Source: Siphonodentalium dalli (Eukaryota > Mollusca > Scaphopoda > Gadilida > Siphonodentaliidae). From it: a stretch of 64,000 nt of DNA. Location of the stretch: the NCBI GenBank assembly GCA_032622095.1, contig CP136066.1, positions 156,821,152 to 156,885,151 on the forward strand. Direction: 5' to 3'. The notes below the pieces were generated by a model. The model did no database searches. It was not told the origin of the DNA and was given only the letters and a program-made list of their open reading frames with translations. Positions within the stretch are counted from its first letter, which is position 1; every line of letters starts with the position of its first letter. Positions 19,047 through 64,000 of this stretch are shown one piece after another. The position numbers and the translations under genes are program-made.

Positions 19047-20690
19047 TAGTCGAGTTTTTTTCCAAAACTCGACTTATAGCTTGATGAGGGACGGTGGGCG
19101 GGCGGGCGGGCGGGCGACGTGTTTTGCTTATAACTCAACCGTTTATTGACGGATTAAAAAAAAAATTGGTGTGTGAGTACATATCCATGCACGTAAAATC
19201 GGGTTCTTCCGCACATTTATTACCGAGTTATGGCCCTTTGCCATTTTCACCGATTTTAGGCTCGTTAACGCAACAACTTCAACAAACGTTATCCGATTTG
19301 ATTGAAATTTGGTATATAGGTGTCTCCCAAGAATATCTCGGACGAGTTCGAAAACCGGCCGGGTCCGATAAAATTTGATAGTTATGGCCCTTAATTAGTC
19401 ATTTTTCACGAATTTTCAGCTCGTTAGCGCGATAACTTCAACAAACGTTATCCGATTTGATTGAAATTTGGTATATAGGTGTCTCCCAAGAATATCTCGG
19501 ACGAGTTCGAAAACCGGCCTGGTCCGATAAAATTTGATAGAGTTATGGCCCTTAATTAGTCATTTTTCACGAATTTTCAGCTCGTTAGCGCGATAACTTC
19601 AACAAACGATATCCGATTTGATTGAAATTTGGTATATAGGTGTCTCCCAAGAATATCTCGGTCGAGTTCGAAAACCGGCCAGGTCCAATAAAATTTGATA
19701 GAGTTATGGCCCTTAATTAGTCATTTTTCACGAATTTATAGCTCGTTAGCGCGATAACTTCAACAAACGTTATCCGATTTGATTGAAATTTGGTATATAG
19801 GTGTCTCCCAAGAATATCTCGGACGAGTTCGAAAACCGGCCTGGTCCGATAAAATTTGATAGAGTTATGGCCCTTAATTAGTCATTTTTCACGAATTTTC
19901 AGCTCGTTAGCGCGATAACTTCAACAAACGTTATCCGATTTGATTGAAATTTGGTATATAGGTGTCTCCCAAGAATATCTCGCACGAGTTCGAAAACCGG
20001 CCTGGTCCGATAAAATTTTATAGAGTTATGGCCCTTAATTAGTCATTTTTCACGAATTTTCAGCTCGTTAGCGCGATAACTTCAACAAACGTTATCCGAT
20101 TTGATTGAAATTTGGTATATAGGTGTCTCCCAAGAATATCTCGGTCGAGTTCGAAAACCGGCCAGGTCCAATAAAATTTGATAGAGTTATGGCCCTTAAT
20201 TAGCTCGTTAGCGCGATAACTTCAACAAACATCATCCTATTTGATTGAAATTTTGATATATAGGTGTCTCCCAAGAATACCTCGGACGAGTTAGAAAACC
20301 GGCCCGGTCCGATAAAATTTGGTAGAGTTATGGTCCTTAAGTAGTCATTTTGTACGAATTTTGAGCTCGTTAGCGCGATAACTTCAACAAACGTCATCCG
20401 ATTCAACTAAAATTTGGTATATAAGTGTCTTCCAATAATATCCTGGACGAGTTCGAAAACCAGCCTGGCCCAATAACATTTGATAGAGTTATGGCCCTTA
20501 ATTAGTAATTTTTCGTGAATTTTTAGCTCGTTAGCGCGTTAACTTCAACAAACGTCCTCCGATTTGTTTAAAATTTGGAATAGACATACTTGCCAAGAAT
20601 ATTTCGGACGAGATCGAAAACCAGCCTGGCCCGATAAAATTTTATGGAGTTATGGCCCTTAATTAGTCATTTTTTCGATTTTACCTATTA
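19047..20690 (+). repeat. 161-bp satellite array, about 10 units (copy 1)
   Basis: The array begins with an inverted AAACTCGAC pair and a (GGGC)n tract. Units carry CTCGTTAGCGCGATAACTTC, ATCCGATTTGATTGAAATTT, GGTATATAGGTGTCTCCCAA, GACGAGTTCGAAAACCGGCC and GAGTTATGGCCCTTAATTAG. Unit starts recur near 19420, 19581, 19742, 19903 and 20064. One unit near 20204 is about 20 bp short, and the last two are more diverged. Frames reading through it are array artefacts. Confidence 0.95.
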
Positions 20691-22922: not shown

Positions 22923-24566
22923 TAGTCGAGTTTTTTTCCAAAACTCGACTTATAGCTTGATGAGGGACGGTGGGCGGGCGGGCGGGCGGGCGACGTGTTT
23001 TGCTTATAACTCAACCGTTTATTGACGGATTAAAAAAAAAATTGGTGTGTGAGTACATATCCATGCACGTAAAATCGGGTTCTTCCGCACATTTATTACC
23101 GAGTTATGGCCCTTTGCCATTTTCACCGATTTTAGGCTCGTTAACGCAACAACTTCAACAAACGTTATCCGATTTGATTGAAATTTGGTATATAGGTGTC
23201 TCCCAAGAATATCTCGGACGAGTTCGAAAACCGGCCGGGTCCGATAAAATTTGATAGTTATGGCCCTTAATTAGTCATTTTTCACGAATTTTCAGCTCGT
23301 TAGCGCGATAACTTCAACAAACGTTATCCGATTTGATTGAAATTTGGTATATAGGTGTCTCCCAAGAATATCTCGGACGAGTTCGAAAACCGGCCTGGTC
23401 CGATAAAATTTGATAGAGTTATGGCCCTTAATTAGTCATTTTTCACGAATTTTCAGCTCGTTAGCGCGATAACTTCAACAAACGATATCCGATTTGATTG
23501 AAATTTGGTATATATGTGTCTCCCAAGAATATCTCGGTCGAGTTCGAAAACCGGCCAGGTCCAATAAAATTTGATAGAGTTATGGCCCTTAATTAGTCAT
23601 TTTTCACGAATTTATAGCTCGTTAGCGCGATAACTTCAACAAACGTTATCCGATTTGATTGAAATTTGGTATATAGGTGTCTCCCAAGAATATCTCGGAC
23701 GAGTTCGAAAACCGGCCTGGTCCGATAAAATTTGATAGAGTTATGGCCCTTAATTAGTCATTTTTCACGAATTTTCAGCTCGTTAGCGCGATAACTTCAA
23801 CAAACGTTATCCGATTTGATTGAAATTTGGTATATAGGTGTCTCCCAAGAATATCTCGCACGAGTTCGAAAACCGGCCTGGTCCGATAAAATTTTATAGA
23901 GTTATGGCCCTTAATTAGTCATTTTTCACGAATTTTCAGCTCGTTAGCGCGATAACTTCAACAAACGTTATCCGATTTGATTGAAATTTGGTATATAGGT
24001 GTCTCCCAAGAATATCTCGGTCGAGTTCGAAAACCGGCCAGGTCCAATAAAATTTGATAGAGTTATGGCCCTTAATTAGCTCGTTAGCGCGATAACTTCA
24101 ACAAACATCATCCTATTTGATTGAAATTTTGATATATAGGTGTCTCCCAAGAATACCTCGGACGAGTTAGAAAACCGGCCCGGTCCGATAAAATTTGATA
24201 GAGTTATGGTCCTTAAGTAGTCATTTTGTACGAATTTTGAGCTCGTTAGCGCGATAACTTCAACAAACGTCATCCGATTCAACTAAAATTTGGTATATAA
24301 GTGTCTTCCAATAATATCCTGGACGAGTTCGAAAACCAGCCTGGCCCAATAACATTTGATAGAGTTATGGCCCTTAATTAGTAATTTTTCGTGAATTTTT
24401 AGCTCGTTAGCGCGTTAACTTCAACAAACGTCCTCCGATTTGTTTAAAATTTGGAATAGACATACTTGCCAAGAATATTTCGGACGAGATCGAAAACCAG
24501 CCTGGCCCGATAAAATTTTATGGAGTTATGGCCCTTAATTAGTCATTTTTTCGATTTTACCTATTA
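22923..24566 (+). repeat. 161-bp satellite array, about 10 units (copy 2)
   Basis: Unit-for-unit duplicate of 19047-20690, including the short unit and the diverged last units; isolated differences include TATATATGTG near 23513. Confidence 0.95.
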
Positions 24567-32504: not shown

Positions 32505-32518
32505 GCACTCGTTAACTG

Positions 32519-35500
32519 ATGAAGAAGCGAATCAAGATGACTCATGAAATTATATCCGCTCTTCTGGTGGTGTGTGTATTTGTGGAACTCACACGCTCAT
32601 GTCCAGTGCAATCGCCATGCAAGTGTACAACCGAAACGGATGGAAGGACTATTATAGACTGTGGCAAAAAAGACTTGTATCAGGTGCCAACTTTTAATTC
32701 ATCGTCTGTGTTGTACGACGAACTTCTCCTGCAAGGGAATCGCATAACTTCAATAGGCGATGACGCTTTCTCTGGGCTGAGAGTTCGGAGGATATTCTTA
32801 GTGGATAGCCCACAAAGCAGCGACAATGTTCTGGGCGAAATTTCTTTAAACGCTTTTCGCGGCTTGGAAAATGATCTGGTCGAACTTTCTATCCGAGGAA
32901 ATACAACACTTGATGTCCCATTCGGTACTATCCGCGTCCTTGTATCTTTGGAGAGTATAACTCTTGTTGACTTTCACCAGGCTCGCATAGAAACCGGCGA
33001 TTTTTCACCATTCCCGAATCTCCGAAGTCTACACTACGCTAACATCCTCTTGCAGAGTATCGCATCAGATGCGTTCGGGGGAAACTCATTTCTGGAGACG
33101 TTGAAGATAGAATCTAGCAGTTTGGAAAACTTGCCAGTGGGCGTCCTTCAGAATATTCGAAACGTGACTAGCTTATCGCTGACAGGGTCGCGAATCGCTA
33201 GCGTCGCACGTGGTGTTTTTGCCGCAATGACAAGCTTAGTTAATCTGGATCTGTCGGACAACACTAATAACATAAACCTGGACCCAGGGTGTTTTTCCGA
33301 CCTAGAGAGCCACCTCCAAAGCCTCAGTCTGGTTGGGAATAAATTGAATAGCGTAGATGTGACCAACATAGGAAATTTATCATCTCTACAAGTTCTCAAA
33401 CTTTCATCCAATATCATCACATCCTTTCCGAACAATGATTTTCCTAATTTGAGAATTCTTCAGCTGGACACTAATCAGATTACAAATTTGCTTACACCGT
33501 CGCAATTTGAACAGCTAGAGGAACTGCATCTCACCAACAATTTTATAAGCTCTGTTGGTGAATCGTTTTTCAGTAAATCCCCTTCGTTGAAGAAACTCTA
33601 CATGACAGACCAACAGTCAACATCGGTACTGAACATTTCGTCGTTCCGTGGTATTGAGAATTCATTGGAGTATCTGGATTTATCACAGAAGGGCGTAGGC
33701 AGTCCGGATTTAGCCGAACCAGAGATATGGGCTTCGGTTAAGACACTGCGAGCGTTACGTGCTCTGAATCTTGGTGACACTGGACTTACATATATTCCAG
33801 ATTTCGTGTTTGAGGATGCCAAGAATCTCCAGAATATAAGTCTGAGCAATAACCATATATCTCTTTTGAGCCAGGAGATGTTCCATGGATTGAAAGATAC
33901 CCTGCGGTTGGTGGATCTTGATTCGAACAGCATTCGAACGGTTGATGGGTGCGTTTTTGAGTATTTCACCAACTTGGAGAGAATACATCTTAACAACAAC
34001 CCGTTCCATTGTGACTGTCGTATGACTTGGTTATCAGAATGGTATCAGGAACAGGACGCTCTTAATATGGACTTTCACATTTACAATCCATGGGAGTGTA
34101 CAACTCCACCAGAGCTTGCTGGTGAAAGCTTTCTTTTGCTGTCAAACCTCGCATGTGACGCGAATGTCACGCAACCTACGTGCCGGAACTATTACGTCAC
34201 ACTTGAGTTGTATGTGTTATCCATATCGGAGAATTTTCTAAAATTAAAATGGAATATATCAGACAATAGTGACATAAGTTATTATGTGATGACGTATAGC
34301 CGACTACCAGCTGGAGCTGAACATAGCATTTCCAACATCCCAAACGTAGAAACGGAGTATGAGTTGGGAAAGTTGGAAAATATTCAAGGAGGTACATCAT
34401 ACCGGGTCTGTTTGCGCCCTACTATGCTGAATTTTCCCCAGAACTATCTTCTAGAAAGTTGTTTGGTTGCGAACACTACCGTTCTTCCGACGTTTGACGC
34501 TTCTCTGTCAACTTTCCCATTGGACGTTAATATGAACTGGACCATAACACCGGCCACATATGTTCTTGACTTTTTTCTCTACTACACAGAAGAGTCTATT
34601 GGAATAAGAGAGGATGTTACTGATATATCAACTCACTCATATGCTCTGCCCAGCTTGAAACCTAGCACGGCGTACAGCATTTGCGTGGGCGCCAACATGG
34701 ACCCAATTGTCGAAGCAATCTATCCTATATTGTGCGTTAGATTACTCACATCGGGATACAACGTTTCCTTTGACTCAAGAATCGCGTCCAGATCCGATTC
34801 CTACATAAAAATTCAGTGGGACGCAGCCGACATTACGCACGTGTCTGGATTTTCTGTTGTCTATCAAACGAATAACATTGAAGAGCGTCGTCTTAATATA
34901 TCCCGCAATCTTCGTGAGCTCACGATCAACCCCATGGACCAGGGTGTCGCATATAATATATGTATTACGGCTGAAATAACAGGAGGCGTTCAGGGCTATA
35001 GTCCAGAGATGTGTATGACATCTGCTCTTGTGATCTTGCCGACGTTGACTATTGACGTTTTGTCAAAAGATGTCGACAATTTCTTGGTTCAATTCAACGT
35101 GTCAAATCCGGAATATTTCTCGTCTTTTTCGATGCAATACGAAAACATTGAAACTGAAATTATAATCACGGTGCCAAATCTGGAACAAGGGCGTGTATTG
35201 AGTCTCCCACACCTCAACCCGACAACGTCATACGAGTTGTGTGTCATCGGCGATCTTCTTCCTGGAATCGACATTTTGAAACCAAGAGAATGCATGAACG
35301 TCAGGACTGTCACTCCTATTACCACGACATTGGTGCCACCTGGCGGCTCGAGTGATACTCTTGAAGGGTGGATAATAGGAGCTGCGGTGGCAGGCGGAAT
35401 ATTCCTCATACTGATTATTCTCATATTATGTTTCATATGTTGCTATAGAAAAAGAGCAAACAAATTTAAGGATGTTCCAGATGTTCGATACACTGTCGAG

Positions 35501-36043
35501 GCGCGTTCATTCCAGTCCACAGGCACGCCGAGATTGGGCTACGATTCCAAACGTTATGCGAGGAAGAAAGTGATAGCGGCCGATGGATCTGAGATGGTCG
35601 TGACTGTTGTGTCGTCTGGAAAGCTTGATGGATCTTCAAAGGGGGATAAACCGGACAACCCAAGAACGTCTGCAATGTCTGCTGGCAGCTACCAATACTT
35701 GAGTAAAGACAAAGTAATGAATAAGCCAACAAATAAGGACCAGGCGTACTTGGAACCTGTGCAATCAACTTCGGACAATGTATACCTGGAACCCGTACCA
35801 TCGACTTCCGGCGGTCACGATCCCAGGCACTCGACGTACGTCAATAGTTTGGGGTCACGCCTGCTACCACCCGAGCCGAAACAAAATGGCAAGGCTAGTG
35901 ATTCTCAGAAGCGAGGATTGGGTTTTACAGATTTACACGCGAAACCGGGATCACCAGCTACAACTTACGTGAACGCATACGATGAAATACCAGACACTGC
36001 CAAACAAGGAGTGGAAAACCAGGGATTTATGGACCCAGTGTGA
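32519..36043 (+). CDS. Leucine-rich repeat, FN3-like type I transmembrane receptor with tyrosine-rich tail
   Basis: A single open frame of 1174 residues. A basic N-terminus and hydrophobic stretch (about residues 9-27) form a signal peptide. A cysteine cap follows (C28, C34, C36, C48), then about sixteen LRRs with LxxLxLxxN cores up to about residue 492 and a C-terminal cap with the NPFHCDC motif (C498, C500). Residues 550-940 hold four fibronectin-III-like repeats, each ending in a YxxC segment with a second Cys about 19 residues later. A single membrane helix runs from W951 to about C976 and is followed by YRKRANK. The tail of about 198 residues has tyrosines in YQYL (1058/1060), YLEP (1077, 1089) and YVN (1107, 1150) contexts. 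LRR-FN3 receptors act in adhesion, neural wiring or immunity; ligand and role here are unknown. The ATG follows a splice acceptor by 14 bp. A second in-frame ATG at codon 7 is also possible. I cannot assign an orthologue. Confidence 0.95.
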   Translation: MKKRIKMTHEIISALLVVCVFVELTRSCPVQSPCKCTTETDGRTIIDCGKKDLYQVPTFNSSSVLYDELLLQGNRITSIGDDAFSGLRVRRIFLVDSPQSSDNVLGEISLNAFRGLENDLVELSIRGNTTLDVPFGTIRVLVSLESITLVDFHQARIETGDFSPFPNLRSLHYANILLQSIASDAFGGNSFLETLKIESSSLENLPVGVLQNIRNVTSLSLTGSRIASVARGVFAAMTSLVNLDLSDNTNNINLDPGCFSDLESHLQSLSLVGNKLNSVDVTNIGNLSSLQVLKLSSNIITSFPNNDFPNLRILQLDTNQITNLLTPSQFEQLEELHLTNNFISSVGESFFSKSPSLKKLYMTDQQSTSVLNISSFRGIENSLEYLDLSQKGVGSPDLAEPEIWASVKTLRALRALNLGDTGLTYIPDFVFEDAKNLQNISLSNNHISLLSQEMFHGLKDTLRLVDLDSNSIRTVDGCVFEYFTNLERIHLNNNPFHCDCRMTWLSEWYQEQDALNMDFHIYNPWECTTPPELAGESFLLLSNLACDANVTQPTCRNYYVTLELYVLSISENFLKLKWNISDNSDISYYVMTYSRLPAGAEHSISNIPNVETEYELGKLENIQGGTSYRVCLRPTMLNFPQNYLLESCLVANTTVLPTFDASLSTFPLDVNMNWTITPATYVLDFFLYYTEESIGIREDVTDISTHSYALPSLKPSTAYSICVGANMDPIVEAIYPILCVRLLTSGYNVSFDSRIASRSDSYIKIQWDAADITHVSGFSVVYQTNNIEERRLNISRNLRELTINPMDQGVAYNICITAEITGGVQGYSPEMCMTSALVILPTLTIDVLSKDVDNFLVQFNVSNPEYFSSFSMQYENIETEIIITVPNLEQGRVLSLPHLNPTTSYELCVIGDLLPGIDILKPRECMNVRTVTPITTTLVPPGGSSDTLEGWIIGAAVAGGIFLILIILILCFICCYRKRANKFKDVPDVRYTVEARSFQSTGTPRLGYDSKRYARKKVIAADGSEMVVTVVSSGKLDGSSKGDKPDNPRTSAMSAGSYQYLSKDKVMNKPTNKDQAYLEPVQSTSDNVYLEPVPSTSGGHDPRHSTYVNSLGSRLLPPEPKQNGKASDSQKRGLGFTDLHAKPGSPATTYVNAYDEIPDTAKQGVENQGFMDPV

Positions 36044-42310: not shown

Positions 42311-42758
42311 GTGAAATTGGCCCGATGATGGTTTTCAAAAACGCTACATATTGGTAAAACTAACACCAAGACGTGCGGCTCACAACATACCCACAATAAA
42401 GACTCCACCATTCAGCCCGAATTGTTTTCGAAAATCGTTTACATGATTAGATAACTACACTGTTAAAAACGTTTCATGAGAACCGAAACGAAGAACCATT
42501 ATTTGGTTCTTGGTGACAATTCAGTTTGTGGAACCAATGGAACATGTATACAAGCAAATAACGCTCGTTCAGCCCATCGTCATACAAGGAAAACTATGGA
42601 AACTTTCATTTAGGTAAAATAGTTTAATATTGCCTATAATATCATGAAAATGACGTAACGAAATAAACAAACATTTTAATAACAGATATGCATCAGTTAA
42701 AACATACAATCAATTGCTTTATATTTGCATAGAAGTTTGGTGTGAGTGACCATTTCCA
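42310..42758. other. Presumed 3' flank of homeobox gene
   Basis: Lies downstream of the stop codon at 42759. A GAACC-rich segment near 42478-42545 (GAACCGAAACGAAGAACC) looks repetitive. No gene was seen and no clear poly(A) signal could be chosen. Confidence 0.35.
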
Positions 42759-43694
42759 TCAGCGTTGCCATGGTAAATGCATCCCCGTTGGGTTGTAATA
42801 AGGGTTCGGAATCGACGTGAGCAGAAAAGGTTGCGGACCGGTCAGATGATCACCCGTCTCCAGGGTTGGATATTTTGGTAGAGGTCGGTGTAACTCTCGA
42901 TGTCGCAGGGAGGATAACAAAACAGGTGCATCTGCAACGATGGGAAACGGAAAAACTCGGTCTGCTACACTTAGTCGTTTGCGTTCTGGTCGAAGATTTC
43001 CTGTGGAAGATGCATCCTTCCTGAAATCCAAACAATGGTTTCTAGACCGCAGAAGTGGTTGGGTTCCCTGATGAAAGCACACGAAGTCCTGGCGAGGCGA
43101 TATTAAGTCAGATAAAATAGGTAGCGAGTCATGTGACTCTCGAATGCCACCAGTGGCATGAATGTTCATTGACACCTGTAAGCTAACGTTTGGCGAACTC
43201 GCGGATGCATTCCCGGTCATTTGAGCAGAAGTTTGAAGAATTCTCGTTGCCATGCCCGGTGGAGACCCGGATGCTGAACTGCGCGGGCTCTCAAAAGCAG
43301 ACGACCCCCTTGAATGATTCAAGGCAGACAAACCTGAGTCGTACGCACCCGATATAACTTGATTCGGTGGAGAAACCATGTCATAGATATTCCCAAGAGG
43401 AGACTTGGTGATCTGACCATTACGAGCACACATATTTGGTCGTTGATTGAATTTCTTTCGTTTCGCTTTCTGTGGTTGAGCTTTGTCGTATTTTTCTAGT
43501 TCAACCACTATACTGTTGAGCACTACTCCCGGTACAATTTTGTCGTCGCACGGCTGTTGCTTCTGGTCTGGGTTACCAACTGGTTCAGTGTCGTTACTGC
43601 ATGATTTGTCGCTGTCAGAACTCGTGTCAGATGTGTCACCGGCTTTTGTGGAGTTATCGACCACGTCTTTTCGTCTCCTGTTTTGGAACCAAAT
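42759..43694 (-). CDS. Homeobox gene exon 4: end of helix 3 and C-terminal region
   Basis: Follows acceptor CTATGTAG and opens in phase 0 with the homeodomain recognition-helix residues IWFQNRRRKD, then 301 residues to a TGA. The tail is hydrophilic and rich in Ser, Pro and Asp/Asn. A basic cluster KAKRKKFNQRP about 70 residues in could serve as a nuclear localisation signal. A second basic patch (RPERKRLS) lies towards the end. No octapeptide, OAR or other known motif was recognised. The exon has no competing frame of similar quality, and its base composition is richer in GC than the flanks. Confidence 0.9.
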   Translation of the reverse strand: MWFQNRRRKDVVDNSTKAGDTSDTSSDSDKSCSNDTEPVGNPDQKQQPCDDKIVPGVVLNSIVVELEKYDKAQPQKAKRKKFNQRPNMCARNGQITKSPLGNIYDMVSPPNQVISGAYDSGLSALNHSRGSSAFESPRSSASGSPPGMATRILQTSAQMTGNASASSPNVSLQVSMNIHATGGIRESHDSLPILSDLISPRQDFVCFHQGTQPLLRSRNHCLDFRKDASSTGNLRPERKRLSVADRVFPFPIVADAPVLLSSLRHRELHRPLPKYPTLETGDHLTGPQPFLLTSIPNPYYNPTGMHLPWQR

Positions 43695-46600
43695 CTACAT
43701 AGAAAATAATAGGATTGTTATGGTCAACTGAATGAGTGTGTATCGCCGAACATGCGCAAAAATAAGGTTGTGTAAGCACTGTAAACATTTTAATTCGCGT
43801 GAGGTTGCGCACGTTATGTCATTGTGTGGTCTTTGTGCAAAGTTTATACAATAGTTACAAATGACAGAAAAAGTCTCGGGACACAATCATGTTTACCATT
43901 ATACGTCATCCGGAAATATGGCGTGTATACATACGCGGCTAACACGTAGTCCCATCTGATTATATATAAATACTATAAGTTCTGGCATGTGCTCTATATC
44001 CACATTTTTGTTATATAAATGTTCACAATGAAAAGTTGAACAGTTCCTAATTAAACATTGTCGAAGTAATTGCAACTTTGTGTTTTGAAAGTAATTGAAA
44101 CTGTATTCGTAATTGAGATAATTGAAAGTAAATGTAATTACCATTAATTACTTTGGGTAAGTAATAGACCCATCCCTGTCGATATGTTTAAACCTTTCTT
44201 TACTACATGTTGATTTTCTCATTCACTTATAAACGTATATACTGGAATAGTTTATTATCGTCTGGAGCGATGTTCAGGATATATATGCAAACAACAGATA
44301 ATAAACAGTGAGGAAGGATTCCTATTCATATGTGGGAAATGAACAGACAGCAAGTTCAACAAAATATGGTCGTTAGTTCAACTTATTATCGCAGAAATGT
44401 TCAAGTTACTACGAATCTGGCGGCTGGTTCGACTGGGGCAAGGGCTAGTCTAATGCACGAAATTCGGCAACAACTGTCTAAGGTTCATGCATATAAAAGT
44501 ACATTGTATGAAGAGATTTTCATCTCAAACTTTATATAATTGAACAGTGAATCAAAATTGCTATCTAACTGTCGTCTGTCGTTATTTCTGCGACTCTTAT
44601 ATGTCTGTTTATTTGCGCGGACTCATTGCCTCTTGTTGAATAGACTGGTACCTGGTCAAAAACTGCAAACATCTGACCCCACCAGTCTTATTATCTGAAC
44701 ATTTTCTAAGGGAACTAATGTTTAGTAAAGAAAGGGCTAACAAACCATAATCATCTGAGGCAAGTTGCCAAAAAATGCCATGCAGATTTACCGGTTTGTG
44801 AACGTAGCCAGTATAACCCTTTCACGATGGGAGCTGCACTGGTGCAGTATTAAAGATCCTATGCCAGGGCATTCTCTTATATATGGGAGTCTTCCATATG
44901 GTGAGCCTCCATATAAGAGAATGCACTGGCTTACAGGATCAAGTTAAATATTGTATGGCCACTGTATTCTCGAATGTATGCGAGGTTCCATATGGGAGAC
45001 TCGCATTATAAGAGAATGCATTGGAACATGCAGGGTTTTCGCAAAAGTTCGTGAATCTCCAGTCATGGAAGGGTTAAGATATGGCACTTTACCCACCTTA
45101 ACTTGGTCTCTGGTGATTCCTACTCTTTTAGCAATTAGCTGTTTTTGCACGAGGTTGGGATAACGTAGATTACTGTAGATGCCATTCAGAAGCTCAGTTT
45201 GATATCTTGTGTAACTCAGTCGTTCCCTGGGTGGTGGGGGCGTGAAAGGTCGAATATCTGAAAAAGGGGCGAAAAATTAATCTGATTATGCATGTCCAAA
45301 ATAAAATAAATAGAGGATATCCACACTTTTTTGGTTGGATATGGGAATGATCTCATGAGTGATGAATTCATTATTTTGTCATCACGAATGAGATAATTAC
45401 CATATCCAACCAAAAAGTGTAGATGTTCTGTTTATTATTATGATCACCTTGAGATTCATTGTAACCTTTAGATTTACCAAAGACTATTATAGCCTATATG
45501 TTTCCTTAAAGGTCCATGTTTTTGTTCGATTAAATTAAATTTATGCCTAAATTAGTTTCGTCGATTTAGTTGTGTTTCTGCGGTCAAAATGAACTGATAA
45601 ATATATCATGCTCGTATCTATGATTCGCGTACTAAACGAGTGGATGGAAATATATTTATTTTCTTTCAATATCTGCATATCAGTGTGACTAACGCTCTTT
45701 ATTTTATAACATTGTGGGGGTATCATTAAGCGTTCTTGTTGTTCCACGTTACACAAAATAGTAAACTCTTTTTATGCGATAATTTCCATCTTTTCAGGAA
45801 TTCGATTAACTGATTCGGTGGCCCACATATCATCAAATTCCAAAAACAACAACATTTTTCGAAATGCCGCTTCAGTTATCAGAATCGATCAATTGCCCAA
45901 CAATAATGCTACCACGTGCAGTCAACTATAGTATAAAATTGCCCAAAACCTCTTATTTGTCAACATTTTGTTCAACGAAATTTTGCCAGTTTGTCAAATA
46001 GCTGACACAAAAAAAGCCACTTGATTTAGAGTTATCCATCTTCATCCGCCATTTGGTCCGAGGCCGTCTTCTCGTCGACTTTTTACTGGGCCACCAAAAA
46101 GTATCGGTGGTGAAAAATAATAGATTTCAAAAATCGATATCAGACCACTCTGACCTTTGATGGGTGGGTTCCTCTATTTCAATCAAATATGTTTTACCGC
46201 CGAAGCCAAAGAAATAGTAATTTGTGATCGTTCATTTGGATTATGCATCTTTAACCCTTTGAACCCTGGCGCCCCACATTGATCGACACCCTGACCCGGG
46301 GCTCCCAGAGGTATGTCCGCTTAAATTAGATAGTTTCTAGTAGCATGGTGTTGATTATGTTCAAATTGCGACACCGGTCTGAAACTTTACAGGTTTGTCC
46401 CCCATGGATCAGCGATCATTATAAGATCGCGAGACTTTGCCTCGCGGCAACTCCTTGGTAACGGTTGCTAGGCAACTACCCGGAATTGACTGGAAAATGT
46501 AAATATAGCTTATAGCGTCGTAATTCAACCTCAGTGATTGCGTTTTTTGATGCAGGTACTACTCTAACGTGAAATTTGAGATATACCCGACCAGAATAGT

Positions 46601-49600
46601 GAACCAAATATCCCATTTAAGGGTAGCAACGGTTGCTAAGCAAATACCACAACTGATCGAATGACATAATTGCACTAACCATTCAGTGGTATGTTTTGCC
46701 TTAATTTAGACAGTGTATAGTCGCATGGTGTTGGTTATGTTGAAAGGGGACACCTACCTGAAACTGTGCAGGCATGATATATGCATGCACGGACCACTGA
46801 TCATTGTAAGATCGGGATACTTTGTCACCCGATCTCGCCTTAGAAACGGTTACTAGGCAACTACCCGAAATTTGCAGGATAAACGAATTCTAGCTTATAA
46901 CGTTGTAATTATACATCAGCGAATTGCGTTTCGATGCAACCAATATCCTAATGTGAAATTAAGATATACCTGACCATGCGCGAGTAAGTCAACTTGATAT
47001 GCGATAGACTTTTTGCTGCATGTGGCACAACAGAGACTGATATTACAGAGACCAGAAACAACGTAATTTCCCGTAACATATCGTGGCCCCATTGTTCAAG
47101 TAAGCTGTCTAGATTGTGTCTACTATACTAACATGTGAAACATGAAACAAAATGTCATATATAGCGCCACATTTAACTTAAACGCATTTTTAAAAATGAA
47201 TTATAGTCTGCGCCCATGCGCATATTTTCCTAGCCATTTCTAGCGGGCAGCCAATCCATATAGACACCTTTGCCAGCGCTGACTTCAATAGGCCAATTTA
47301 AATATATATATTAGTGGGTATGTCGTGTATAAGTACGTTATAAACCATTTATTTGTCATTGCGCTAGTCTGCGCATGCGCGAATAAATCAACTTCATATG
47401 CGATAGACCCTTCCCCATATGTAGCAGAACACTGGTTAATATACACGAGGGTAATTTAAACTGAAATTGTGTGTCTAAATTACGTCTGTTCTGTACACAC
47501 ACGGGGAACACGAAATTATATGCCGTAAATATAGCGGCATAGTTCGCTTAAAATATCGTATGTTTTTGTAGATTATATGCTATGCGCATGCGCATATATT
47601 CTACCCGACACTAGCGGTCAACCATTCCATACGCACCATGGGCGCCGCTGACATATGTGGGGGCAATTTAAATATAAATCAGTGGGTCAGACGCTCGTTA
47701 TACTATATATAAATTTGCTACCGAATCATGTCGTCGCTGCACCGAAATATCGGTGTTACGGGATATAGTCACGGTTCGTTTGCACCTAAATATCGGTGTT
47801 ACGGGTTCAAAGGGTTAACAACATAACACTTTCGCATAATATGTTTATAACATACAATTATTGACTCATTTTTGTGAACGGAACCACTTGTTATGTTTAA
47901 TTTATGACTTGAAAGTTACGATGAAGGTCATACACGTGTCGCTTTAACACCATTTGTGCTGTTTCTTGACAGGGTTCATTAAACTCGCCATTGAAATTGT
48001 AAAAGCTCTGTGCAAATACTGTTATTTGTGAGTGGAGTGTATATTCGTCAGAAGAGCAGTAGTTCTGTGCCAATGGTCTCAATATGGGAGCTTATATTGT
48101 ACATAAATTGCTATGACATGGACATTCTAGTGTACAAATATCGACTTGTGGTGAAAAGTGCCTATTCTGACAAATAATGTGGAAGCTATATAAAACAGAG
48201 GGACCCGGTCTTAATTTGGGTTATTGGTTGTGATTAATTCTGATACAGCGAAAGATTAAATCCTAGTTAGTGAGTTGTAGTTAGTTACGTACTGTGAGTC
48301 GGTGGTTTCTGCAAGCATTGTTCTGAATTTTCAGTGAAAAAAAACCCTTCTACTGATATAGTATGGCCAGTCACTATATAACTTACCATTTGTTTCATGA
48401 TGTTCTTCATCTGGAGCCAAGTTCGATGTCGCCATTGAACTTGCACATTGGTTGTCGCGTAACCCAGCAGTCCATTGAGCTCCATTGCTTGCAGGGCAAT
48501 AGTTGGTCGTCAGGCGTGCTGCGTCAGTATTTTCTACCACTGACCTATAGTAACCTGCAAATGGACAACGACTGCATTTAGTCAACTTAAATGAGGGTGT
48601 CACCGCCCCCCCCCCCCCACGAATCCCGAATATCAGTTAACCCTATCTATACTATACATGGATTCTCCCTGTCAGTTAAAAAATGTGCCGTATTTGCTGA
48701 TGGAATTTTTAGATAATAAGTTCAACAATTGATCGTCGTTTGTTGAACTTATTATATGAACATCTCCTATGGGATAACGACTCATCAATGATGCGCGATT
48801 TAGCATCGAAAGGGTTAACGAAGGGCAGTCATTCCTGCGTACCGACTCAAGGTACTCAATCCGATTCGATGGTCCCCATATAATCAGATTGCAACAACAA
48901 CAACATTTTTTAGAAATGCCGCTTCAGTTATCAGAATCGATTAATTGCCCAAAAATAATGCTAACCACTGTCAACTATAGTATAAAATTACCCGAAACGT
49001 GTTATTTATCAACATGTTGTTCGACGAAATTTTGCCGTATTATCAACAGAAAGCCTCTTCATTTTAGAGTCACACATCTTCATCCGCAATTTGGTCCGAG
49101 GCCGTCGGTTGGTCGACTGTTTGCTGGGCCATTATTAATTCTCGATGGCAAAAAATAATAGATTTCAAAAATCGATATCTAATAACTCTGAGCTTTGATT
49201 GGTGGGTTCCTCGACTCGAATCAGATATGTTTTACCCCCGAATCCAAATAGATAGTAATTGAGAGGCGCTTAATAGGATTATGCATCTTTAAGAAGATAT
49301 AGAATAAAAGTCATTGTTATTTCACAATAATACAGGGGGGGGAATTTCCGGCACAAATCGCCGGAACAAGAATTTTTTCCGCAACTAAAAAAAAAAAATC
49401 CTGCTTTTTTGTTTAGTGTTTTGGCAATGAGTTGGGCTTCAAAACCACTTTGAATGAGAGAAATAATGTAATTCTAACTGGTACACTGACTGCAGGCAGT
49501 TATCGTGTTGTATTTTGTTGCAAATTTTGAAATCCAAGATGGCCGCTGGCAGCCATGTTTTTTTGGCCGAATGACCTCAAAATGACTCATTCCTATTTAC

Positions 49601-52265
49601 TGCCGGAAAAAAAATTGGCGGTGGGGGTGGGTGGGTACAAAAAATGATCCGACCCCCCCCCCCCCCCCCCTGAATAATATGATAATTTTCACACATTTTC
49701 TGAAGTAATGTCCATAACTTCAACATATCAAGATGTATGATACTAAATTTCATTGAACTGTGCCAACTCGGCTATGAAATAATCAAAAGTTTAAACGGAC
49801 ATGGTTCATTCGAACCTCCAAATTGTGTTCTACGTAATTTGGAGGGAAGGATAAATAAACGGACTATTGATATACCGGCATCATATGCTCTTTAAAACAC
49901 TTGCAAATTCACAGCCATTTTTCAGCCGTTTTCAACTTTTCGCCAGAAGTCAGACAAACGCTCTTTATTGCTACTTCCATGTCGCGCTAACGGCGGTTTT
50001 TTGTTTGGAACCCAAACACCGTATTCACAGTTGTATTTTTCATTACACCAATGCGTCTTTTTGCGTTACATAATGCTCGTAGAAAGGTAGTTAAGATATT
50101 TATCGACCTATTTCGATACTGAGAAAAATTCAAAAGCGAATAATTTTATGTGTATTTTGAAGCGCTTTAATAATTTGATGCTATACAAGTTGCGTTATAC
50201 CAGCCTTGTTGTTGAATCGTGAATACCGGTTTAAAATGGGCACATGAATCCCGAGCACCAGTTAAAAGAGGGGTGTGAATATTGTGCACAACTTCTAAAT
50301 AACTTGACACTCCACGTACCAGAAAAGTGGGGACGCCATCCTACATGGGCCTCGGGTATATTAAACTCATCAAAGTTCGCAGGACCCCACCCCCTCTCCA
50401 AATATATACGAGTTCCATTGTTATAAAAGTTTCCCTATATGCATTATCTATATTCGAAAACTAATCCACCCTGTGAATAATGGACATTCAGGTATATGCA
50501 TATACGTTTGTGCTTGAATGAGTATACCAATTGAACTTTTCTTTACTAAATACTCATTGACGAGTAGTTACCTTAGGAATTGTTCAGATAATAAGTTCAA
50601 CAAAACGGCCATTATTATTATCTGAATGTACCCCACCAAAGAATATATATGAATGCTTCTGTACTTGTATTATCTTTTCGGCACATTGTCGTCTGCTCTG
50701 AAGACCTCTCCAAATGAATAATGGGAAAATCCATGAATTAAAAAAGTGTTAAAGTAACATATCTGAATTTTCGAAAATTACAGAACAAATTCTCGAGTAT
50801 ACACAGAACAGAACGTACATGAGTTACCCACATAACAATTATGGTGTTATATATATATAGGTGCAGGAAAAATGAAGAATGTGACTTGGGGTCTTAAATC
50901 ATCTAATTTGCAGTAGCTAATTCCTTTGATAACATTGTCATAACGCGCGATGGGACGAAGAGTAAGTATCACCGCGGTCATCAGGCAACAAACCCATCAA
51001 AATTACTTCCCAATATATAGCCCCCCCCCAATCGCAGGATAATAACCAAAACAAAAACATCATATTAAGTATACAAAACATATAATTGAGAACGCTCTTA
51101 ATATGTACCACTAATTTTTTATATGTTATATTTTGAAAGGGCCTGACAAAGGGTTAAAAATCAATAAAAGTGCCTTTCTGAATATTCCCGACAAGCAAGA
51201 ACGCTCTTTATATTTGGTGGTAAAAATCGCTATAGGAGAATAAAAGATGGATAGTACATCCAATGCACACCAATAGCTCCATCTCCGAGATAAAAAAATA
51301 TATATATATATATACAATCAGATTAAGTCCAAAACATGAACTATGAAAAATACTTGCAATTCACGCCAAAAGTACCCTCCCCATGCAGGATATATGAGGT
51401 ATTAACATCAGTACGAAACATATAATTGAGAACGCTGTATAATATATACGTAATGCATGCTAATGATAGGCGCCGGGTCCACAGATCCTCTTTATAATAT
51501 AGGCTATCATTTGAGAGAACATAACAGAGAGCCTTAACGTGATATGATATAGAAATGGAGAATAATCTTGTTCAACGTAGTTATTTTTTACAATTATTAT
51601 ATCTAAATTGACAACACACACCGTCATTCTTACATATTAATTAAATGCAGTGACTGCCGATGGCGAAATAGTTTTCGTTAGTTTATCGCCGATAGAAGCG
51701 TCCCGATTCGAGTATAGTAAATATTTACAATTTAGCGTAGTTCAGACAATGTTTTCTATGGAGTGGTACGGTCGATTTGTTTTATATTTTCGGTGATGTT
51801 AGTAGAATGCTACATTCCTCGAGTTGGCATAGCACCCGAATACTAACTTATCAGTTCCATGCACCCGAACAAGTACCTAATGTCTCTTTAATTACCTGAT
51901 AAAACTTTCTTTTTTGAAAGTCCATTATGACGGTCAAAATCTCTCGGCAACAAGAGTATAAACGCTCTTTATGTTTTGTGGCAACACTGTCTATTTTCGA
52001 GTATATAAGACGTAAACTCGTACATTTAGTATATAGTGGCGTCAAGTCAAATGACACATGTTTAATGGCATGTATATATACCATGCATGTACAGATGTAC
52101 ATGTAAACACAATATATATGTGGAATGTGTAAAAAAAATAGTCCTATTCCAACTCAAAATCCTTATCAGGAATATCATAGACTTACCTGAGGGGTATGAT
52201 GACCCTCGGAAAGACTCCACATCCAGCATTTCTGAAACTTGTCGCACGGTGCAAAACGTCCTCAT
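42759..52265 (-). CDS. Homeodomain transcription factor, four coding exons (gene-level span)
   Basis: Joining 52187-52265, 48387-48554, 45097-45257 and 42759-43694 gives about 447 codons. The junction phases agree (1, 1, 0), and every intron begins GT and ends AG (GTAAGT/TTTGCAG, GTAAGT/TTTTTCAG, GTGGGT/CTATGTAG). The product has an 82-residue leader, a 60-residue homeodomain and a Ser/Pro-rich C-terminus. A nuclear DNA-binding role follows from the fold. The homeodomain keeps R5, L16, Y25, P26, A35, Q44, W48, F49, Q50, N51 and R53. It has an Antp-like YTRYQ in helix 1 but ends helix 3 in RRRKD. The split between codons 46 and 47 is, from memory, common in PRD-class genes. I cannot place it in a named family. 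The first ATG is the earliest in its frame after a TGA near 52344, but its Kozak context is weak. The introns are full of MITEs. Confidence 0.88.
44640..44742. repeat. Small element related to the AGATAATAAGTTCAACA family
   Basis: TTATTATCTGAACATTTTCTAAGGGAACTAATGTTTAGTAAAGAAAGGGCTAA follows the same order as 38745-38795. The left part is diverged. It lies in intron 3 of the homeobox gene. Confidence 0.45.
44863..44930. repeat. Short hairpin element, copy 5
   Basis: GCCAGGGCATTCTCTTATAT pairs with ATATAAGAGAATGCACTGGC around GGGAGTCTTCCATATGGTGAGCCTCC. The central bases differ from copies 1-4. Confidence 0.85.
44957..45025. repeat. Short hairpin element, copy 6
   Basis: GCCACTGTATTCTCGAATGT at the left and ATTATAAGAGAATGCATTGG at the right pair less well than other copies; the centre is GCGAGGTTCCATATGGGAGACTCGC. 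Confidence 0.7.
45097..45257 (-). CDS. Homeobox gene exon 3: homeodomain residues 1-46
   Basis: This 161-nt exon lies between acceptor CCTTTTTCAG and donor GTGGGTAAAG. It starts with two bases that complete an Asp codon with exon 2 and ends after a Lys codon. The reading frame gives a Pro-rich lead (TPPPPRER), helix 1 with SYTRYQTELL, the turn RYPN, helix 2 with LIAKRVG and the start of helix 3, ITRDQVK. Joined to exon 4 it gives QVKIWFQNRR, the homeodomain signature. The spacing R5-L16-P26-A35-Q44-W48 matches a canonical 60-residue homeodomain without indels. It was missed as an isolated frame because it lacks an ATG. Confidence 0.9.
45319..45424. repeat. 106-bp hairpin in homeobox intron 2
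   Basis: ATCCACACTTTTTTGGTTGG pairs with CCAACCAAAAAGTGTAGAT; the arms also include ATATGGGAATGATCTCAT and its imperfect inverse ATGAGATAATTACCATAT. It begins about 60 bp upstream (in gene direction) of the homeodomain exon acceptor. Confidence 0.8.
45811..46254 (+). mobile_element. TTAA-type MITE, copy 4 (homeobox intron 2)
   Basis: Shares with 6741 and 48848 the order CCCACATATCATCAAATTCC, ATCAGAATCGATCAATTGCC, TTCATCCGCCATTTGGTCCG, GATGGGTGGGTTCCTC and the right end GGATTATGCATCTTTAA. The left terminus is diverged. Confidence 0.7.
46251..47818. mobile_element. 1.56-kb piggyBac-like non-autonomous element
   Basis: TTAA at 46251-46254 and 47815-47818 flanks perfect 12-bp inverted ends, CCCTTTGAACCC and GGGTTCAAAGGG. 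TTAA target duplication with CCC-type termini is typical of piggyBac elements (from memory). The interior has two diverged internal tandem pairs: one with ACGGTTGCTAGGCAACTACC (near 46455 and 46850) and one with TCAACTTGATATGCGATAGA (near 46988 and 47390). No transposase frame was found. It sits in homeobox intron 2. Confidence 0.75.
48387..48554 (-). CDS. Homeobox gene exon 2
   Basis: A 168-nt exon between acceptor TCCATTTGCAG and donor GTAAGT, phase 1 at both ends. It encodes 55 whole codons of acidic, Ser/Thr/Asn-rich sequence (for example SVVENTDAARLTTNYCPAS near its start and NLAPDEEHHETN at its end) with no recognised domain. The phase-1 ends match exon 1 (last base G) and exon 3 (first bases AT), the main reason for assigning it to this gene. 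Two other frames are also open here, so the assignment rests on the splice sites and phases. Confidence 0.8.
48700..48820. repeat. Small element with AGATAATAAGTTCAACA hairpin, copy 2
   Basis: AGATAATAAGTTCAACAATTG pairs with the nearby GTTTGTTGAACTTATTATAT; then GACTCATCAATGATGCG and ATCGAAAGGGTTAA as in 38640-38795. Confidence 0.65.
48848..49292 (+). mobile_element. TTAA-type MITE, copy 5 (homeobox intron 1)
   Basis: Left end AAGGTACTCAATCCGATTCG, right end AGGATTATGCATCTTTAA, with the same interior as copies 1 and 4. Confidence 0.8.
49516..49592 (-). repeat. Isolated fragment of the 160-bp satellite
   Basis: GAAATCCAAGATGGCCGCTGG and CAGCCATG...TTTTTTGGCCGAATGACC are the inverse of the end of a 160-bp satellite unit (13850-13890). 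It lies about 32 kb from the array, in homeobox intron 1. Confidence 0.75.
49600..52186. other. Remainder of homeobox intron 1
   Basis: Contains C-runs near 49653 and 51019, an inverted copy of the AGATAATAAGTTCAACA element at about 50530-50640, and AACGCTCTTTAT motifs near 49968, 51180 and 51962. No further exon was recognised. Confidence 0.4.
52187..52265 (-). CDS. Homeobox gene exon 1 (start codon)
   Basis: 79 coding nucleotides from the ATG at 52265 to donor GTAAGT at 52186-52181, giving 26 codons plus one base (phase 1, matching exon 2). The peptide begins MRTFCTVRQVSEMLDVESF and has no known motif. The frame is open upstream for about 25 codons without another ATG and then closed by TGA near 52344, so this ATG is the most likely start, although its context (T at -3) is poor. 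The 5' UTR and promoter lie to the right; no TATA box was identified. Confidence 0.7.
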
Positions 52266-61878: not shown

Positions 61879-62320
61879 TTATTCGTCGTCTTCTTCACCA
61901 GAGTCCATTCCATGGATATCCGGAGATTCTGTGTTTTCACATGCATTTTCAGCAGACAAGTGGCACATTTCTGTGCAGCGGAATCCCTGCTTATAGCACG
62001 TACACGATTTTGTCCCACACGTTCCATGACAATTGCATTTAACAAGTTCAAGGACTGCAACTGGGGCTGGGCCGATCGTCAATGGTATCGGGATCCAACA
62101 ATCACCATCCCAACTCCAACCAAAATGTCCAGATATAACGTCTAAATGGGGAATAGTGGGAACATTTGCATGGCACCAAGCATATGTTTGAACAAAAGCT
62201 CTCAGTAAATGGAGCTTGAACGCATTAGGAGTTGGCGGAAGCCGGTCACCATCAACCATTTTCTTCAAGAATAAAAGCCACCTGGCTGCATGCGGGCAAG
62301 GTTTCCGTGTGTTTATCGTA
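61879..62320 (-). CDS. C-terminal fragment: Cys-rich zinc-binding-like tail
   Basis: About 145 codons after the second frameshift. The stretch ARWLLFLKKM, then DRLPPTPNAFKLHLLRA, resembles the segment that follows the nuclease core in relatives. A tryptophan-containing loop (FGWSWDGDCWIPI) precedes PAPVAVLELVKCNC. Nine cysteines in CNCHGTCGTKSCTCYKQGFR and the following EMCHLSAENAC suggest a metal-binding fold resembling CXC motifs. The end is acidic (SGEEDDE). Alone it would not start at a natural ATG; the Met in LKKMVDG lies inside the conserved segment. Confidence 0.65.
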
Positions 62321-63916
62321 TCCGATTGCTATAAACCTTTCTATAGGCGAGATGAGTTCATCGTGCAAATCTTCATTCAGTCCAAATTCTGCGAATGACT
62401 TCAACATGGTATTGCCATTGTCTGATGGCTCCAAATCAAGGTATAAATTTAAACACGATTTCTTTCCTTCATCCGATAGCCTTCCGGTCGTATCGCACCC
62501 TGTAATCGCGTGCCATGCTAAAATACCTTGGGCCTTCGCCTTGCCAAGAAAGCTGTAAAGTTCACAAATGTCAAACACATTTTCCTGCCAGAACAGGAAT
62601 GTATTAGTAAGAAGTTTTGGGGAAAAGTATAGCAGCAACAATAATATATCTGTGTCTGGGCTCCATATATGTAGAATGTCTAACTTTGATGCAGACGTTG
62701 CGAAATCAATAGCATGTGCAATTATTATTGTGTCCACTTCATCGTGATTCATATCGAAGTGAGACACTTTATTCACTATGCCGCTAACGTTTGAATGTGT
62801 CACACTGAGATCATTCCCACCATAAATTGTTACATATACACACAATTTGTCTTTGAATGTTTCAAGAAATGTTTTACCAACGTAAATTGACAACTCTTGT
62901 TTTGTTTTCTCGTGTCCAAGAAAGTGCGAGAGTGGTTTATTTTGAAGACTTGTATGTTCATTTATTTTGTAATAAATGGCATCCCGATGCTTATTTCTGT
63001 TATCACGCGTTGCTGTTTTCCGTGAATGGTCAAGGTAAGGATCGAACACTAACCTAACTTGATCATAGTGCTCTATTTTGTATTCTATTATGGAATTAAA
63101 AACATCAGCGGGTTCATCAATGGAGTTCAAAATTTTGCTGTTAGGAACTAAATGCAAAACTGCCATTCCATCTGTAATTACACATTTATTTTGCGCCGAT
63201 GAACATGAATCAATGCCAAGTGAATGTTGAACATTAGTATCGAAATCGGACTGGAAGCCATGTTGATCAGAGAACAGCAAGGGAAGTTCCTCGATACCAT
63301 TATTACTAATATCTTCTTCCTGTAAAGAATCGATGGACATAGAATCACTCTCCGAACTCCATTCCGTGTCAGTTTCAGCTTCGTTTTCATCAAGTGTACA
63401 TAGAGACATCCGGAATGCATTTTGTGTTACCGAGTGAAAATGCCTCACTATTTCACTTTTATCGGTACACATACGAAGGCTGCCTTCTGCAAACAAACTT
63501 CTCGGAAACGACGAAAATTCATAGCTACCTATTGCTTCCTGTTCATCAATAGTGTGAGATGACCTAGATATTATTATAAATCTAGCCAAGAGATCTCTCT
63601 CTTTTTTTTTCAGGTGATTGATATTTCCGAATTCGGATGGAGACTTAGCTTTTGGGTTCGGCTTGGAGAACGAGCGCAAATTGTTTCTGCTTAATTTGTT
63701 TTGATGGTAAAAGTTGGTGGTGCTTTTGTTTTGATGGTAAAAGTTGGTGGTGCTTTTGTGTGACACCACATGAAATTTGTCCTGCCATTCCCTAACCACC
63801 CTAGATATGACTCGTGCTGTGATGCAATACCGATTTCTCGCGTTTAAGTTGTTCGCAATACCAGTTATGCCACCATTGATTTTCATTGTTTTCTTGTTCT
63901 CCGGCGTGATCAACAC
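62252..63916 (-). CDS. Central fragment: PIN/FEN-like nuclease core
   Basis: 554 codons without a stop (the reported start is GTG, so not a natural initiation). An N-terminal part with GGITGIANNLNARNRY is followed by an acidic low-complexity stretch (about residues 180-230). The nuclease-like core follows: VFDPYLDHSRKTATR, EVDTIIIAHAIDF, WSPDTDILLLLL and AITGCDTTGRL. The order of acidic motifs (xxVFD, E-x-D, SPDTD, GCD) resembles FEN1/XPG-type metal-binding sites, so a structure-specific nuclease fold is inferred, not shown. The last 20 or so residues, after HTETLPA, are out of frame. A 30-bp exact tandem duplication gives a repeated STTNFYHQNK near the N-terminus. Confidence 0.7.
   Translation of the reverse strand: MLITPENKKTMKINGGITGIANNLNARNRYCITARVISRVVREWQDKFHVVSHKSTTNFYHQNKSTTNFYHQNKLSRNNLRSFSKPNPKAKSPSEFGNINHLKKKERDLLARFIIISRSSHTIDEQEAIGSYEFSSFPRSLFAEGSLRMCTDKSEIVRHFHSVTQNAFRMSLCTLDENEAETDTEWSSESDSMSIDSLQEEDISNNGIEELPLLFSDQHGFQSDFDTNVQHSLGIDSCSSAQNKCVITDGMAVLHLVPNSKILNSIDEPADVFNSIIEYKIEHYDQVRLVFDPYLDHSRKTATRDNRNKHRDAIYYKINEHTSLQNKPLSHFLGHEKTKQELSIYVGKTFLETFKDKLCVYVTIYGGNDLSVTHSNVSGIVNKVSHFDMNHDEVDTIIIAHAIDFATSASKLDILHIWSPDTDILLLLLYFSPKLLTNTFLFWQENVFDICELYSFLGKAKAQGILAWHAITGCDTTGRLSDEGKKSCLNLYLDLEPSDNGNTMLKSFAEFGLNEDLHDELISPIERFIAIGYDKHTETLPACSQVAFILEENG
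63693..63760 (-). repeat. Exact 30-bp tandem duplication inside the nuclease-like gene
   Basis: TTTTGATGGTAAAAGTTGGT followed by GGTGCTTTTG occurs twice in direct succession, keeping the frame and duplicating ten residues. Confidence 0.9.
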
Positions 63917-64000
63917 CGATTGAAACGTACGGAAGAGAAGATTTAGTTACACAAAAGTCGCCATCTGAAAGAGCCTTCCATGTTTCCTTTTCTTGGAGTC

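Follow-up and report, generated by a model that had tools for sequence, protein, structure and literature searches.

The 64-kb stretch of the Siphonodentalium dalli genome analysed here (the window; contig 6, hereafter C6, 156.82-156.89 Mb, in an assembly of 2.23 Gb in 9 contigs) probably carries a functional, single-copy and highly diverged spiralian (lophotrochozoan) homeobox gene, which is most likely a PRD-like orphan; we put the probability of this reading at about 0.7. The gene is a real, intact and divergent homeobox gene, unusual mainly in the low resemblance of its homeodomain to the others sampled from the same genome. In other respects it is ordinary, a further orphan homeobox in a group already known to have many.

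The gene lies on the minus strand and is modelled with four exons (Table 1). An earlier note on this DNA had proposed four minus-strand exons with phases of 1, 1 and 0, GT/AG splice sites throughout and a protein of about 447 residues. The exons were found at exactly those places and with the same lengths, all three introns read GT...AG on the minus strand, the carried phases were reproduced on recomputation, and the spliced frame of 1344 nt gives 447 residues and a stop.

Table 1. Features of the homeobox gene, in positions of the 64-kb window.
Feature	Position	Strand	Details
Exon 1 (putative, initial)	52187..52265	minus	79 nt; ATG at 52265; donor GTAAGT; single copy; without homology
Exon 2 (putative)	48387..48554	minus	168 nt; phase 1 in and out; single copy; without homology
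Exon 3	45097..45257	minus	161 nt; 8 linker residues and homeodomain residues 1-46
Exon 4	42759..43694	minus	936 nt with stop; homeodomain residues 47-60, then tail
Intron 3	43695..45096	minus	phase 0; splits homeodomain codons 46 and 47
ATTAAA, possible polyadenylation signal	42675..42680	minus	79 nt past the stop

Exons 2 and 3 share the first linker codon, while residues 1-46 of the homeodomain occupy 45234-45097; residues 47-60 follow at 43694-43653 in exon 4, succeeded by a Ser/Pro-rich tail of 297 residues with a basic KRKK patch, and by the stop. The hexamer ATTAAA is a common variant of the polyadenylation signal, and its presence is no proof of use. As the exon 4 frame is closed by a TAG directly at its own acceptor, and that of exon 3 extends only 19 nt further upstream and has no in-frame ATG there, neither could be an unspliced gene alone. 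The predicted join between exons 3 and 4 is almost certainly correct, and is strongly supported because the homeodomain runs unbroken across the phase-0 junction at residues 46/47, a known homeobox intron position.

The complete 60-residue homeodomain of the earlier claim is indeed present, at residues 91-150 of the protein. Exon 3 supplies 46 of these residues and exon 4 the other 14, and the domain becomes complete only once the two exons are joined between its residues 46 and 47. A homeodomain profile run on the spliced translation, which had been proposed as a check, gave a Pfam Homeodomain match of 55.5 bits against a cut-off of 22.9 (4.9e-15, residues 93-145). Residues W48, F49, N51 and R53 are intact, R5, L16, I47, Q50 and K55 are also present, position 54 is R54, and Pro26 is found. 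The Homeobox_KN profile (PF05920) scores as well, at 25.9 against a cut-off of 24; membership of the TALE class was ruled out, as the domain has 60 residues without a three-residue insertion between helices 1 and 2. In a genome-wide Pfam search the window gene was not among the matches listed (150 of 505 candidates scored), illustrating how a divergent homeodomain split 46+14 across two exons can escape profile searches.

Of the four-exon gene originally proposed, exons 3 and 4 are firm, whereas exons 1 and 2, with no recognisable homology in a Pfam search of the spliced protein, are plausible but unproven, the best model found on splice scores, phase, G+C and copy number; as a whole the four-exon model is probably correct. 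Sites were ranked against the GT and AG dinucleotides of that strand, donors with a model from 48 homeodomain exon ends of the S. dalli genome, in which codon conservation biases the final bases of the exon, and acceptors with generic, rough weights of our own setting. On these scores exon 3 has a donor in the top 0.16% and an acceptor in the top 0.10%, the exon 4 acceptor is only in the top 2.7%, and the exon 1 donor is in the top 0.03%; the exon 2 sites are at a more modest level (acceptor top 0.9%, donor top 3.5%). Between 45.4 and 60 kb, exon 2 is the sole candidate with both sites at its level among 971 open, phase-compatible internal exons, and the exon 1 donor, for which two ATGs are possible, is the strongest among 283 phase-1 initial-exon candidates; no other phase-compatible candidate within these 14.6 kb equals the splice scores of either exon. 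The thresholds were the scores of exons 1 and 2 themselves, so that this test asks only whether anything better exists. The G+C content of the exons is 0.44-0.51 (0.51 in exon 1, 0.48 in exon 2) against 0.37-0.38 in the introns, and each of the two exons has a single match in the genome, itself, so neither is a repeat visible to that search.

It is nonetheless possible, if somewhat unlikely, that the homeodomain exons are real and the 5' end differs, with other exons or with a start upstream or at 52229, an alternative compatible with the main reading. Besides the lack of homology and the rank of the exon 2 donor, it is favoured by the finding that an internal candidate at the level of exon 2 arose in 14% of 200 first-order random regions of the same dinucleotide make-up, and by the tiles of the same size in the window, which held 0, 0, 0 and 0 internal candidates on the plus strand and, on the minus strand, 0, 4, 1 and 0, where the four candidates fall in the tile that covers the position of exon 2 itself. 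However, an initial candidate at the level of exon 1 arose in none of 200 such random regions, and the unrivalled scores of both exons within the region searched, together with their exon-like G+C, argue for the model of Table 1. The first ATG, at 52265, has a weak context (T at -3), and a second in-frame ATG at 52229 (G at -3) would give 435 residues; the start codon may be either.

The homeodomain was compared with others of the same genome by sampling 80 stretches from 150 genome-wide Pfam places and from the places found with the exon 3 homeodomain; a homeodomain was recovered from 76 (none in L050, L056, L058 or L033, the latter with 2 bases only), and 74 distinct full-length segments were kept, of which at least three (L069, L070, L079) look partial or misaligned. 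The best identity is just 16 of 46 residues, to a Hox gene of Lox5 type, compared with a median best identity of 32/46 within the sampled set, and only L069, L070, L078 and L079 score below the window gene, three of these being the segments that look partial or misaligned. The highest BLOSUM sums were obtained with four Otx-like genes on C6, identical at 11-14 of 46 residues. Among PDB matches DUX4 ranked top (two domains of ~32 bits each), followed by OTX2 (41.0), aristaless (39.4), CRX and ALX4, so that the leading names are all of the PRD class, with Antennapedia (37.3) not far below; the rank of DUX4 was rejected as a sign of kinship because its score sums two homeodomains, each below the 41.0 bits of the single-domain OTX2. 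A literature search with stretches of the homeodomain letters returned no match, a result of little weight, since sequences of this sort are placed in figures and supplements.

A phase-0 intron at 46/47 has been described for PRD-class genes (PMC2211742, PMC6258689, PMC2938728). The window gene has this intron position, which is common in the PRD class but not exclusive to it. A donor exactly at 46/47 was seen in 36 of the 74 sampled segments, 33 of them with Pro26, so that 33 of the 41 Pro26 segments carry this intron; a 44/45 donor was seen in 12 segments, all of them without Pro26, 24 segments (8 with Pro26) are uninterrupted and 2 were unclassified, although the sample favoured exons cut at residue 46 and these counts are therefore not genome-wide frequencies. 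The 46/47 donor is also found in L057, L062 and L063, which we take to be LIM-type, in L038 and L066, presumably Eve-like, and in L060, which lacks Pro26; none of the sampled Hox rows has it. On the intron, Pro26 and the best scores, which are Otx-like, the sequence suggests a PRD-like gene; the trees, K46, Y20 and the motif YTRYQT stand against this. Y20 takes the place of the F20 described as typical of the human PRD class, which LEUTX is also described as lacking (PMC2211742); tyrosine occupies that column in 10 of 75 rows, window gene included. Y20, K46 and a 46/47 donor also occur together in a different divergent homeodomain exon, present in three copies at C6:174620600-174665800 (L019, L020, L068), and the divergent homeodomains L059, L061, L064 and L065 likewise combine the 46/47 intron with K46.

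An alternative that we consider improbable is a diverged ANTP-class gene, derived from a Hox or Eve gene, in which the 46/47 intron was gained or kept. The first helix, with YTRYQT at residues 8-13, and K46 match Hox homeodomains, the top raw identity is to the Lox5-type gene, and the two Eve-like genes of the same genome have the 46/47 donor. However, those two genes rank just 59th and 61st of 74 in similarity to the window gene, no sampled Hox row has the 46/47 donor and all of the sampled rows with a 44/45 donor are without Pro26. Patterns for YPWM, eh1 and OAR found nothing in the 447-residue protein, and the missing YPWM-like motif likewise speaks against a Hox-derived gene.

Trees were built on 46 columns, the principal one of 49 rows containing 23 PRD and 25 ANTP rows picked by eye after a first tree and leaving out 26 rows, which include divergent rows as well as LIM-, Eve-, POU- and SIX-like ones. 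When left free, this tree put the window gene on the side of the 25 ANTP rows and apart from the 23 PRD rows (support 99/99). It falls there in a starred set (96/96) together with 8 ANTP rows, the nearest five of them Hox, and its end branch is saturated at 10 changes per site. However, a tree in which the gene was held among the PRD rows was at least as good, being 1.1 log units better than the free tree (p-AU 0.511; saturated branch), and the test does not separate the two placements. In the tree of all 75 rows the gene stands beside L028 and L054 (93/61) on a long branch of 4.65. With 46 columns and a saturated branch, the placement was counted neither for nor against either class.

Searches for accompanying domains gave negative results: none of 17 PAX matches falls in the window, the sole C6 match being at 203.3 Mb; not one of 6 OAR matches lies close to the gene; and none of the 65 listed LIM matches (150 of 235 candidates scored) is on C6. 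LIM and PAX ancestry were rejected, since no LIM or paired domains were found nearby.

The preferred reading, a PRD-like orphan, leaves room for a more specific history, in which an Otx-type gene of this chromosome was duplicated and, through extreme divergence, gave rise to a lineage-specific gene that would parallel in spiralians the ETCHbox genes of mammals, which arose from CRX; on the present sequences this is doubtful. Hints of it are the four Otx-like best matches, the position of most other weak matches on C6 and an intron plan around the homeobox like that described for Leutx. In the search with the exon 3 homeodomain part, 9 of 10 rows were on C6, the gene itself included, and these represent just three separate other loci; the next best matches (28-33% identity, E 0.02 to 0.17) were to the Otx-like cluster. 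The window gene resembles the Otx family in its highest BLOSUM sums and in its best single-domain PDB match, and differs from it in its low identity and in having Q50, whereas Otx homeodomains carry K50. Four Otx-like homeodomain exons lie within 0.12 Mb at C6:101622200-101743100 (L014-L017), of which L014 matches OTX2 at 81.4 bits; the oyster table lists one Otx (PMC5322547).

No close paralogue was found in the S. dalli genome in searches with the exon 3 homeodomain part and with a 76-residue query. Identities in the latter search were 39-43% to Hox rows and 31-39% to further homeodomains; the match of this query at C6:156864780-156864923 is exon 4 of the same gene, and exon 4 has one genome match only, itself. 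No other listed homeodomain lies within 15 Mb of the gene (150 of 505 candidates scored, plus the exon 3 homeodomain search). That the gene is a pseudogene, or a set of open stretches brought together by chance, as its extreme divergence might imply, is very improbable, given a 311-codon terminal frame beyond chance (the longest frames in 100 first-order random 64-kb sequences had a maximum of 222 and a mean of 158), intact contact residues and no parent copy in the genome searches, and as its introns are kept it is not a retrocopy.

The host genome is spiralian, as seen from its Post1-, Post2- and Lox5-type Hox genes; the homeodomains at 77.0-79.1 Mb of C7 make up what we take to be a spiralian-like Hox cluster, in which Post1, Post2, Lox5 and Lox2/4 types are represented and a gene presumably of engrailed type stands at the end. 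Two Hox exons of identical translation lie 47 kb apart in this cluster (C7:77673392 and C7:77720570; L004, L005), and may reflect either a recent duplication or a sequence duplicated in the assembly.

Spiralians are known to have diverged homeobox genes restricted to particular clades, to which the present gene adds one checked model with exact exons in a chromosome-scale genome. In the oyster, 31 of 136 homeobox genes are reported to fall outside the ancient families, among them PRD Clades I-VI as well as PRD genes without a placement; just one of the novel PRD genes is described as having a paired domain, and the clade-restricted genes are described as peaking early or late in development (PMC5322547, Paps et al. 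2015). PRD VII, PRD VIII and Lopx were added subsequently (PMC6118893, Barton-Owen et al. 2018). As described in those accounts, the noncanonical clades I-VIII share with the window gene a spiralian host, a homeodomain outside the canonical families and PRD-like features, and the gene fits this divergent-PRD kind when compared by description. Lopx is similar, again by description only, as a lophotrochozoan orphan family automatically mistaken for Otx/ceh-37, and is reported to have a diagnostic C-terminal motif, shown in a figure (PMC6118893).

Outside the spiralians, the Leutx, ETCHbox and DUX genes also have diverged PRD-like homeodomains (PMC6258689, PMC2211742, PMC4904359, PMC8208926). As in the window gene, the homeobox of Leutx is reported to be directly preceded by a phase-1 intron and split at 46/47 by one of phase 0, and its residue 20 is changed (PMC6258689, PMC2211742). 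However, Leutx is reported from placental mammals only and with three exons, whereas the window gene has four, and the likeness is one of architecture, not of orthology. DUX genes have two homeodomains, the window gene one.

The binding of homeodomains to a TAAT core is well established, and with R5, I47, Q50, N51, R53 and K55 intact, sequence-specific binding at such a core is to be expected of this protein. The gene would be transcribed from the minus strand and its four exons spliced to encode a nuclear protein of 447 (or 435) residues, whose single homeodomain would fold as three helices, with helix 3 docked in the major groove, N51 reading the A of the TAAT core and R5 contacting the minor groove. 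I47, Q50 and R54 would set the flanking bases of the predicted DNA target, expected to be of TAATTA/TAATTG type, where R54 may shift the preference, and the Ser/Pro-rich C-terminal tail would act as a regulatory domain. The role that we infer, very likely, is that of a developmental regulator of the ordinary kind.

Elsewhere in the genome, at least 13 listed homeodomain exons lie within 0.3 Mb at C1:189985546-190285778, with one more (L064) at C1:214747169. The three of the 13 that were read (L059, L061, L065) and the outlying L064 closely resemble one another, are divergent and have their break at 46/47, and best PDB matches in the array are weak; the array may have arisen by a recent expansion of homeobox genes specific to this lineage, which would make it more unusual than the window gene.

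Scans of the 64-kb window found no Rfam family at the gathering threshold and no tRNA. An open frame of 1175 residues at 32516-36043 on the plus strand has leucine-rich repeats, a fibronectin III domain and, judged by eye, a likely transmembrane stretch, and one of 564 residues at 62252-63946 on the minus strand, with no Pfam match at E 0.01, looks mobile-element-like by eye. Two blocks of a 161-bp tandem repeat, at 19244-20674 and 23120-24550, lie about 3.9 kb apart with near-identical consensus, which suggests a local segmental duplication.
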